The notes beneath the pieces are model-generated. The model ran no database searches and was not told the origin of the DNA. It worked only from the letters and a program-made list of their open reading frames with translations. Position numbers and translations under genes: made by a program. Shown here piece by piece: positions 41,973 through 58,156 of a stretch of 64,000 bases of DNA. Position 1 is the stretch's first letter; every line of letters starts with the position of its first letter. The stretch is from Aquiflexum gelatinilyticum (GTDB lineage: Bacteria; Bacteroidota; Bacteroidia; Cytophagales; Cyclobacteriaceae), in assembly GCF_024741135.1 (NCBI RefSeq), contig NZ_JANSUY010000017.1:1-64000 (forward strand), written 5' to 3'.

Positions 41973-42046
41973 GGCGAGGTAGCTCAGTTGGTTAGAGCGC
42001 AGGATTCATAACCCTGAGGTCAGGGGTTCAACTCCCCTCCTCGCTA
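41973..42046 (+). tRNA. tRNA-Met (CAU anticodon)
   Basis: 74 bases with a complete cloverleaf: acceptor GGCGAGG / CCTCGCT, D-arm AGTTGGTTA, anticodon arm AGGATTCATAACCCT with anticodon CAT, T-arm AGGGGTTCAACTCCCCT, discriminator A. No CCA is encoded. The start GGCGAGG rather than CGCGGG points to the elongator type. Its 3' part (42025-42046) is the first base of the 357-bp repeat units that follow. Confidence 0.95.
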
Positions 42047-42050
42047 CATA

Positions 42051-42077
42051 AAGCTTCTCCTTTGAGAGGCTTTTTTT
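42051..42077 (+). terminator. tRNA-Met terminator (also copied at 42408 and 42765)
   Basis: Hairpin AAGCTTCTC / GAGAGGCTT with a 4-base loop (CTTT) followed by seven T. The same hairpin recurs at +357 and +714 as part of the repeat. Confidence 0.85.
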
Positions 42078-42096
42078 ATTTCTATTATTTTTAAAT

Positions 42097-42351
42097 ATGT
42101 ATACTGTATACGTCCTATATTCTTTTTCGGCCTCCCGATTTTACACCGGAATGACCTCAGATCTCATAACCCGTTTCAAGTTTCACAACGAGAAAGGAAT
42201 CAAAGGTTTTACAACTCGATTTAGGCCTTGGTACTGCATCCATGTGGAGTTTTTTGAAGATAAATCAAAGGCACTTCAAAGGGAAACAGAACTCAAATCA
42301 GGCAAGGGAAGAGATTGGATTAAATCAAATATTCTTCCACTTTATATGTAG
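42097..42351 (+). CDS. GIY-YIG nuclease domain protein, copy 1
   Basis: 84 residues made of a single GIY-YIG domain: YTVYVLYSFSASRFYTGMTS holds the two motif halves (YVLYS and FYTGMT), DLITRFKFHN supplies the catalytic Arg helix, and FFEDKSKALQRETELKSGKGR the conserved Glu. This is the UPF0213/YhbQ type, small and with no accessory DNA-binding domain. Structure-specific or homing cleavage is plausible but unproven. It sits 50 bases after tRNA-Met within the first 357-bp unit. The gene product is identical to copy 2. Confidence 0.9.
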   Translation: MYTVYVLYSFSASRFYTGMTSDLITRFKFHNEKGIKGFTTRFRPWYCIHVEFFEDKSKALQRETELKSGKGRDWIKSNILPLYM

Positions 42352-42353
42352 CA

Positions 42354-42403
42354 AGGATTCATATCCGCCGCGGCGGACAGCGGTTCAACTCCCCTCCTCG
42401 CTA
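42354..42403 (+). other. tRNA-Met 3'-half remnant 1 with GC palindrome
   Basis: AGGATTCATA (matching the anticodon arm of tRNA-Met) is followed by the perfect palindrome TCCGCCGCGGCGGA at 42364-42377. The T-arm and acceptor sequence GGTTCAACTCCCCTCCTCGC comes next, ending in TACA. There is no 5' half, so it cannot be a functional tRNA. Confidence 0.85.
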
Positions 42404-42738
42404 CATAAAGCTTCTCCTTTGAGAGGCTTTTTTTATTTCTATTATTTTTAAATATGTATACTGTATACGTCCTATATTCTTTTTCGGCCTCCCGATTTTA
42501 CACCGGAATGACCTCAGATCTCATAACCCGTTTCAAGTTTCACAACGAGAAAGGAATCAAAGGTTTTACAACTCGATTTAGGCCTTGGTACTGCATCCAT
42601 GTGGAGTTTTTTGAAGATAAATCAAAGGCACTTCAAAGGGAAACAGAACTCAAATCAGGCAAGGGAAGAGATTGGATTAAATCAAATATTCTTCCACTTT
42701 ATATGTAGCAAGGATTCATATCCGCCGCGGCGGACAGC
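42382..42738 (+). repeat. 357-bp tandem unit 2
   Basis: Identical by eye to unit 1, including the second GIY-YIG gene and the palindrome. It begins in the T-arm part of remnant 1. Confidence 0.95.
42454..42708 (+). CDS. GIY-YIG nuclease domain protein, copy 2
   Basis: 84 residues, identical in sequence to copy 1 (same start MYTVYVLYSFSA, same end NILPLYM). It lies in the second 357-bp unit, exactly 357 bases after copy 1. Perfect identity of both genes and flanks argues for a very recent duplication. The gene ends two bases before the next tRNA-like remnant. Confidence 0.9.
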   Translation: MYTVYVLYSFSASRFYTGMTSDLITRFKFHNEKGIKGFTTRFRPWYCIHVEFFEDKSKALQRETELKSGKGRDWIKSNILPLYM

Positions 42739-42760
42739 GGTTCAACTCCCCTCCTGGCTT
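42711..42760 (+). other. tRNA-Met 3'-half remnant 2 with GC palindrome
   Basis: Second copy of AGGATTCATA plus palindrome TCCGCCGCGGCGGA (42721-42734) plus T-arm sequence. The acceptor part reads CTCCTGGCTTCATAAAG and differs at two positions from the other copies. Confidence 0.85.
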
Positions 42761-42795
42761 CATAAAGCTTCTCCTTTGAGAGGCTTTTTTTATTT
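42739..42795 (+). repeat. Partial third unit, 57 bases
   Basis: GGTTCAACTCCCCTCC..., terminator hairpin and T-run match the start of units 1 and 2, with two mismatches. Similarity stops at 42796. It probably is the displaced original 3' end of tRNA-Met. Confidence 0.85.
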
Positions 42796-57271: not shown

Positions 57272-57441
57272 CATGGTCAAGGTTTGTTTTTTTGAAGACA
57301 CAAAACATGGCGTAAAAGAAGCCTAATAGAAATAATTTAACATACTGCAAGGATATGTTCACAATGGCTTAACCAAGTTGAAATTTTGATGGTATACTTT
57401 TGTGGCAGTAAGTTTTCTTCATAGGTATTGATGATATTTTA

Positions 57442-57470
57442 AACGGAACGGCCCTGCTGTTCCGTTTTCT
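57442..57470. terminator. Convergent terminator hairpin
   Basis: AACGGAAC / GTTCCGTT with a 9-base loop, followed on the plus strand by TTCTTATTTC. It lies between the convergent M20 and glycosyltransferase genes and may serve both. Confidence 0.65.
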
Positions 57471-58156
57471 TATTTCAATAACCGGGAATACAAAACCTTG
57501 AGTTTTGAAGGTGGATGGTTTAGAAAAAAAAGACCAAATACAATCAGATTTGCCACCTGAACCCTGAACCAAGAATTTTTTTCATACTTACGGGCGGAGA
57601 CCAAAATCCTTTTTTGAATTACTTTAAAGTTGTACTTTTTCTTAATCCTCCTGACCAGTTCAAAATCCTCCATCAGGCAGTATGTCTCATCAAATCCCCC
57701 CAATTCCCAAAAAACATCCATTCGGATAAAGAGGGTCTGATCGCCTCCTCCGGAAAGCAATCCGTTGAATTGCGTAAACCATGCATTGACCTTTAGTAAT
57801 TTCATAGTTGAATCAAAATCATAGGCAAAACAGCCCACCGGAAAACCTTCTTCCAAACACGCTCTGATTTCATTCATAAATGTCGGCAAGATCCTTACAT
57901 CGGCATGGACAAAATATAATACATCCCCTTTCGCGACTTTAGCACCCAAATTCATCTGAGATGCCCTGCCTCTGATCGGACTTTCCAAAAATCTGAAACC
58001 GGCCTTTTCTACAACTTCTTTGGACCTGTCTGTACTCCCACCGTCCACTACTATCACTTCCAGTAACCCTGAATTTATATCCTTGGGAAACAAAAGCAGC
58101 AATTCTTTGAGGTTCTTCTCTTCATTTATTACCGGAATAATGACACTTAATTTCAT
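57470..58156 (-). CDS. TIGR04283-type glycosyltransferase (arsenosugar biosynthesis)
   Basis: 228 residues, a GT2-type catalytic domain: KLSVIIPVINEEKNL, VIVVDGGSTDRSKEV, RGRASQMNLGAKVAKGDVLYF with the HADVRILP metal motif, LSGGGDQTLFIRMDVFWELG and MEDFELVRRIKK. This pattern fits the TIGR04283 group that co-occurs with TIGR04282 proteins in proposed arsenosugar pathways. It starts seven bases after the DUF6134 gene stop, so the three genes are one transcript. The sugar donor is not known. Confidence 0.9.
   Translation of the reverse strand: MKLSVIIPVINEEKNLKELLLLFPKDINSGLLEVIVVDGGSTDRSKEVVEKAGFRFLESPIRGRASQMNLGAKVAKGDVLYFVHADVRILPTFMNEIRACLEEGFPVGCFAYDFDSTMKLLKVNAWFTQFNGLLSGGGDQTLFIRMDVFWELGGFDETYCLMEDFELVRRIKKKYNFKVIQKRILVSARKYEKNSWFRVQVANLIVFGLFFLNHPPSKLKVLYSRLLK

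Follow-up and report, generated by a model that had tools for sequence, protein, structure and literature searches.

The window analysed here is a stretch of 64,000 nucleotides from Aquiflexum gelatinilyticum (genome G000). Behind an intact tRNA-Met gene it carries an array of two 357-bp tandem units and a third piece of 57 bp (Table 1). The units are identical at 357 of 357 bases, and the third piece (42739-42795) repeats the first 57 bases of the unit with two mismatches, at 42756 and 42760. Each unit runs from the 3' part of the tRNA through its terminator and an 84-codon GIY-YIG gene to AGGATTCATA, the palindrome TCCGCCGCGGCGGA and the start of another tRNA 3' end. A preliminary description had reported the identical units and the third copy, and this is correct to the base. 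Its 84-residue GIY-YIG gene in each unit corresponds to two open reading frames with a Pfam match, and the anticodon-arm copy, palindrome and new tRNA 3' end that it placed at the close of each unit are seen in both. When up to two mismatches are allowed the palindrome occurs only twice in the window, against 0.01 expected. The intact tRNA is assigned to the elongator type by a rule of our own (an anticodon arm without GGGCTCATAACCC) and it alone reached an Rfam gathering score, which the remnant did not. The array is flanked by a START_2-domain gene and by rplT, which both lie on the opposite strand.

Table 1. Features of the tRNA-Met array, numbered by position in the window.
Feature	Positions	Strand	Basis
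Intact tRNA-Met(CAT)	41973..42047	+	ARAGORN; Rfam RF00005, 69.9 bits
Array unit 1, 357 bp	42025..42381	+	Identical to unit 2
Intrinsic terminator of tRNA-Met, copy 1	42050..42073	+	Terminator scan
GIY-YIG nuclease gene (predicted), copy 1, 84 aa	42097..42351	+	ORF; PF01541, E 4e-15; model pLDDT 95.6; conserved residues
Partial tRNA-Met anticodon-arm copy AGGATTCATA	42354..42363	+	Repeat analysis
Hairpin palindrome TCCGCCGCGGCGGA replacing tRNA bases 38-47	42364..42377	+	Repeat analysis
tRNA-Met 3' part copy, from base 48	42378..42404	+	Repeat analysis
Array unit 2, 357 bp	42382..42738	+	Identical to unit 1
Terminator, copy 2	42407..42430	+	Terminator scan
GIY-YIG nuclease gene (predicted), copy 2, identical to copy 1	42454..42708	+	ORF; sequence comparison
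Second partial anticodon-arm copy	42711..42720	+	Repeat analysis
Second hairpin palindrome	42721..42734	+	Repeat analysis
Third tRNA-Met 3' part, two mismatches to unit	42735..42761	+	Unit comparison
Terminator, copy 3 (repeat ends at 42795)	42764..42787	+	Terminator scan; unit comparison

The GIY-YIG nuclease superfamily is defined by a domain with conserved tyrosines, an arginine and a glutamate. The window protein matches the Pfam GIY-YIG domain (PF01541, E 4e-15), and Y5, Y16, G18, R26, H30 and E63 are invariant in a 30-row alignment of its relatives. A structure model of the 84 residues has a mean pLDDT of 95.6, and its closest fold neighbours are UPF0213 BH0048 and Slx1, followed weakly by I-TevI. 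On its domain, residues and modelled fold the protein is assigned to this superfamily, with nuclease activity predicted. PDB sequences matched at E 0.01 number seven, all of them UPF0213, SLX1 or SLX1 homologues. This makes the UPF0213 GIY-YIG proteins (PDB 1ywl, 1zg2) and the GIY-YIG domain of Slx1 the closest solved relatives in both sequence and fold, and we know of no link between either of them and tRNA. NCBIfam gave the window protein no name. Among the 30 relatives, five touch TIGR01453 (group I intron endonuclease) and four touch phrog_314, a PHROG named homing endonuclease.

Could the array be a chance tandem duplication or an artefact of assembly? The two-unit copy number in the window rests on a draft assembly of 57 contigs, and the repeat is perfect. 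However, among four sister genomes searched, two have the same two-copy array, and single-contig genomes contain longer ones of three to five copies. There, all five copies are identical in G298 (L122), as are all three in G136 (L165), and the five in G174 (L121) match at 94-100%. An artefact is rejected for the phenomenon on these grounds, although the exact number of copies in the window may differ from two, and this explanation as a whole is scarcely credible.

Relatives of the gene are present at E 0.001 or better in all five genomes of the genus searched. At the tRNA-Met site its distribution is patchy. Two copies each are found in G000, G002 and G003 (three of the five genomes), and G001 and G004 have scars only. 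The two copies in G002 and in G003 are identical within each genome, at spacings of 357 and 372 bp, and both genomes also have hairpin-bearing pseudo-tRNAs upstream of the intact tRNA-Met. These pseudo-tRNAs lie between the START_2 gene and the tRNA (L087, L088), and one at L087 carries TCCCGATAGCTATCGGGA in its D-loop region. A wider search at family level covered 41 genomes, 38 with a START_2 gene at E 1e-30, and gave 29 new loci that make 34 with the five from the genus. A tRNA-Met adjoins the START_2 gene in 26 of the 34, the neighbourhood being recognised by its START_2 side and not by rplT. The preliminary description had proposed comparing occupied with empty sites in relatives, and this one neighbourhood provides the comparison. 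Of the 26 sites, seven have the nuclease gene (one broken, L203), four have a remnant only (two recognised by pattern, two by eye) and in 15 neither was found. A single chromosomal site is thus occupied, scarred or empty among relatives.

Between species the Met-type genes of G000, G002 and G003 have a dS of 0.17-0.34 and a dN/dS of 0.07-0.13, whereas copies inside each genome are identical. Val-type pairs with defined ratios have a dN/dS of 0.16 or below. Judged by these substitutions, the nuclease gene is under purifying selection and array copies are homogenised within genomes. The tRNA-Val array of G003 (L026) is not homogenised; neighbouring copies differ by a dS of 0.61, and one is nearer to a G004 copy (dS 0.40).

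How general is the arrangement? A first scan of named genomes gave 43 loci, mostly from Bacteroidota but including metagenome bins assigned to KSB1, Ignavibacteria, Kryptoniota, Cloacimonadota and Brennerbacteria, assignments that can be wrong. A 30-row profile (A1) was then used, which is biased to tRNA-linked loci because its rows were picked largely from them. At E 1e-12 or better it matches in 178 of 296 sampled Bacteroidota genomes. Eighty regions were taken from the best-scoring listed places of this phylum search, so the survey figures apply to the better-scoring part of the family. Removing duplicates leaves 166 clusters, of which the genus contributes 22, the named genomes 40 and the phylum search 104. 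ARAGORN places a tRNA within 500 bp in 136 of them (18/22, 30/40 and 88/104, respectively), and the closest one is on the same strand as the gene in all 136, at a median of 50 nt. Among the stricter 112 clusters, whose tRNA is free of any long hairpin, there is no opposite-strand tRNA within 500 bp. A tRNA remnant is present in 13 of the 30 clusters without an ARAGORN tRNA, several of which lie at contig ends, leaving 17 of 166 with neither. In contrast, of 139 control windows taken 900-1400 nt leftward of the clusters, 1 gave a tRNA-like match. The preliminary description had staked its idea on a link between this gene and tRNA ends in related genomes, and such a link was clearly found. At least two profile matches, which include broken pieces of one gene, are found in 51 of the 166 clusters (maximum 8).

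The tRNA species involved are diverse. After correction the tally is Met 45, Asn 17, Ser 15, Val 14, Asp 12, Arg 12, Ala 6, Thr 4, Pro 3, Cys 3, Gly 3, Phe 1 and Gln 1, the Met class combining initiator with elongator tRNAs and also, by the calls as made, CAT-anticodon isoleucine tRNAs. The link fades with distance from the profile, because of 16 weaker matches, taken at E 1e-8 or better from six genomes that had supplied earlier loci, five have a tRNA within 500 bp (Gln, Lys, Pro, His, Ser) and 11 are without one. Seven of the 16 were inspected, and three of these have the full layout with hairpin remnants. Two of them, beside tRNA-Gln and tRNA-Pro, belong to a Kryptoniota bin; the third, next to tRNA-Lys in a Brennerbacteria bin, has a broken gene.

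By the raw calls the tRNA is upstream of the gene in 112 clusters and downstream in 24. At both L003 and L107 the closest call is a remnant with a hairpin, and a clean tRNA lies upstream, so the figures become 114 and 22, with the total unchanged at 136. When the tRNA leads, the unit consists of the tRNA 3' part, terminator and gene. When it trails, which is the case in the Ser(tga) arrays L162 and L165, the unit is a short leader, a hairpin-bearing 5' part of the tRNA and the gene; in the tRNA-downstream arrays inspected the partial copies are 5' pieces. A full tRNA gene within the amplified unit is absent from the window and from the arrays inspected, where the units hold partial copies. The preliminary description had pictured a minimal self-duplicating element entering the 3' part of a tRNA gene. 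The idea of a self-duplicating, tRNA-linked element is supported, but the restriction to the 3' part does not hold, given the 22 of 136 with the tRNA downstream and their 5' pieces.

A displaced tRNA 3' end beside a restored gene is familiar from integrative elements and prophages at tRNA attB sites. Perhaps, then, the array is an ordinary integrase-type element reduced to a one-gene footprint, for which displaced 3' ends would be typical. What does not fit is that there is no integrase gene between the flanking genes. From the START_2 gene to rplT, the ORF list with its 60-aa minimum comprises the two nuclease genes plus two frames that overlap them, and therefore there is no room for one. 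The array also differs from attB-site elements in that the repeats extend past the tRNA through the terminator, a hairpin is present, the tandem units have one gene each and 5' variants exist. An integrase footprint is very improbable.

The clades of the nuclease are matched to tRNA species. The protein tree has 158 members, of which 130 have a labelled tRNA, and on it species changes 32 times, compared with 75-88 in 200 shuffles. In a stricter set of 104 rows without duplicates, limited to clusters whose tRNA is free of a long hairpin (which also loses some normal tRNAs with long anticodon stems), the changes number 23 against 57-68. The tree was built on 77 columns and draws 67 of its 152 inner branches open, for which reason nothing finer than the overall shuffle contrast is usable. 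Layout behaves likewise, with 11 changes against at least 18 in 200 shuffles of the raw labels, and 6 against 10-12 in the stricter rows. Initiator and elongator Met change only twice, so target switching is rare. Several clades can reside at different tRNAs within one genome (Asn, Asp and Ser in G298), and the Met clade spans several phyla, going by genome labels. Vertical descent at fixed loci may add in part to the tRNA-species signal.

The partial tRNA copies have a hairpin in them. A search for perfect hairpins, with stems of at least 6 by construction and tRNA sequence on both flanks, found one or more in 97 of the 136 tRNA-linked clusters, 86 with the TCC...GGA type. At least two of the listed hairpins are natural tRNA arms (L030, L115), so the 97 may be 96. 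Positions were numbered with base 34 as zero, giving 112 locus-positions. Bases 38-47 are replaced in 38 (Met, and one Asn), the anticodon arm 27-43 is exactly replaced in 19 (Val, Ala, Gly, Pro, some Arg, one Asp) and the T-arm is partly replaced in nine, all of them Asp and comprising most Asp; the other 46 are scattered over other places. On the protein tree hairpin position changes 30 times across 91 loci, against at least 32 in 300 shuffles within species, none of which was as low. This signal is clear only when species are pooled. Within single isotypes the test is weak, as the observed value was reached by 26 of 500 shuffles for Asp, 24 of 500 for Asn and 104 of 500 for Arg. In the pooled data hairpin position thus tracks the nuclease beyond tRNA species.

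Horizontal transfer was considered for the tails of 63 Met remnants and rejected. The host tRNA is the best match for 38 and a foreign one for 18, with seven ties, but the majority of those 18 tails are truncated and have no good match at all. The only telling case is L044, with 6 mismatches to the host tRNA and 2 to that of another genus.

A related system is known from phage. SegB of phages T4 and T6 is a free-standing GIY-YIG homing endonuclease (PMC13096335, PMC2988022). It cuts inside tRNA genes with the motif RAWTSGAAC, and segmental, tandem amplification of its locus needs both catalysis and recombination (PMC13096335). We read this motif as the T-loop on the other strand. The likeness is a GIY-YIG gene among tRNA genes, with tandem amplification of tRNA and nuclease gene. 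However, SegB is a phage gene, whereas the element here is found in bacterial chromosomes, in clades specific to tRNA species and with hairpin-bearing partial tRNA copies. The preliminary description knew of no described system built this way; SegB is a related one that has been described (PMC13096335). For bacteria, full-text searches found no report of such a system in the titles and abstracts of the matches listed, subscription papers and preprints lying outside the search. A phage origin of the bacterial element was also considered and rejected. Two protein queries returned no phage records, viral contigs gave two partial matches of 29 residues and none for the Asp type, and plasmid records were two and weak.

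By analogy with SegB, we think it probable, if by a small measure, that the array is a minimal chromosomal parasite of tRNA genes, consisting of a single-domain GIY-YIG gene and a hairpin-bearing partial copy of the host tRNA. The nuclease would cut its matching tRNA gene, close to the stretch whose place the hairpin takes. Recombinational repair across the tRNA half and the terminator would retain one intact tRNA, and the same repair would copy the nuclease gene into uncut alleles and create or shrink tandem units. The hairpin would mark copies with a destroyed target, which would hence be neither cut nor used as a tRNA. One intact gene, partial copies and like tandem units would be the expected residue of repeated cutting and repair. 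We infer the cutting and the movement of the element; the link between clade and tRNA would support allele-specific cutting as in a free-standing homing endonuclease. For the most part the repeated tRNA end and terminator belong to the host itself, and duplication or gene conversion therefore suits them no less well than an element importing a tRNA end would.

There is an observation that sets this element apart from homing proper, where the target is absent or altered in the allele that carries the nuclease. The intact tRNA-Met has the same sequence in occupied G000 and in scar-only G001, so the resident tRNA is not protected by a sequence change. Its own locus would therefore be cut unless the site spans the flank or activity is rare. 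Possibly the recognition site reaches into flanking DNA. For this reason the protein is not filed as a homing endonuclease, only as something working like one. Nor does homing explain why the copies contain a hairpin rather than any mutation.

What if the nuclease recognises the hairpin itself? REP/RAYT systems are a precedent, with short palindromes tied to one small nuclease gene and present in dispersed copies. Here the enzyme might spread its hairpin in the same manner, the tRNA copies being one landing place. Palindromes, one small nuclease gene and dispersed copies are common to both, but RAYT belongs to a different enzyme superfamily and the palindromes here sit within tRNA copies at set positions. 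The hairpins have a common form, with TCC...GGA ends in 136 of 176, variable loops and partly clade-specific stems. The preliminary description had suggested counting the palindrome, and TCCGCCGCGGCGGA occurs at 11 places in G000, against 0 for the reversed control. Three are within tRNA-Met copies (two in the window array, one at L012), and at the other eight ARAGORN finds no tRNA. A profile match is present in 33 of 36 palindrome-rich genomes but in 145 of 260 others (p 1.6e-5, uncorrected for kinship; three of the 36, G034, G183 and G235, also have at least 10 reversed-control matches). In addition, some distant relatives of the gene sit among other dispersed inverted repeats. Against this, many clades keep to a single tRNA species and a constant hairpin register, which points to recognition of the tRNA; the palindromes may be older dispersed repeats unconnected to the nuclease gene, and G230 has 17 profile matches and zero TCCGCC palindromes. 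A mover of palindromes is unlikely, if worth keeping in mind. The same doubt applies to a mobile system of palindrome and tRNA in Bacteroidota and several candidate phyla, in which each clade of small GIY-YIG nucleases would read one tRNA gene and write its own hairpin at a set position in the copies, and sister clades would serve other dispersed palindromic repeats.

G000 has two further relatives of the window gene. One follows two tRNA-Val genes and precedes a Val-like copy with a hairpin in place of the anticodon arm. The other has an internal stop and is at a contig end, before a hairpin-bearing tRNA remnant. At L012 (G000:C12, about 57394-57514) an initiator tRNA-Met is accompanied by two hairpin-bearing remnants, with no nuclease gene in view; these remnants are a scar of the same kind as the array.

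Could the element instead have been domesticated? A pseudo-tRNA transcript or the nuclease might protect or regulate the tRNA gene, for example as a decoy for integrases that target tRNA 3' ends. Purifying selection would be consistent with this, as would the exact replacement of the anticodon arm at 19 of 112 locus-positions, as if the RNA fold mattered. However, stripped of its terminator the Met remnant does not fold better than shuffled sequences (z -0.44), the 5'-type arrangement lies away from tRNA 3' ends, and one site within one genus is patchily occupied and scarred. A host function is rather improbable.

To return to a parasite of tRNA genes, recurrence beside many kinds of tRNA in many bacteria suggests a little-noticed class of selfish element. 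The nuclease profile matches in 178 of 296 sampled Bacteroidota genomes, yet no description was found among the literature matches listed. Since tRNA genes are essential and conserved, a nuclease for a single tRNA gene would be a neat form of selfish DNA on an indispensable site. If the code from clade to tRNA is real, nature would have provided a set of small single-domain nucleases whose DNA specificities are separable, and ideas on the origin of tRNA gene arrays, tRNA pseudogenes and dispersed palindromes could be tested with it. If the palindrome-and-tRNA system were true, it would add to REP/RAYT a further way in which an enzyme and a short palindrome invade bacterial genomes, and it would give rise to dispersed palindromes and to arrays of tRNA pseudogenes.

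Some minor observations concern the repeats and the gene boundary. Of 17 loci tested that hold more distant GIY-YIG relatives not near tRNAs, nine have dispersed-repeat motifs similar to GTCATTCTGA no more than about 600 bp away, a count without a control and from a motif list picked after examples were seen. The nine are L031, L035, L041, L084, L246, L248, L251, L252 and L253, densest at L035, L041 and L246 and with a single match at L084, L248 and L253. Possibly this is a second link between nuclease and palindrome. Around 1501-1514 at four places (L006-L009), the window palindrome also terminates longer repeats that share a ACCCATGGCT-like flank. At L025 and L079 the nuclease gene takes its stop codon from the tRNA sequence of the next remnant.
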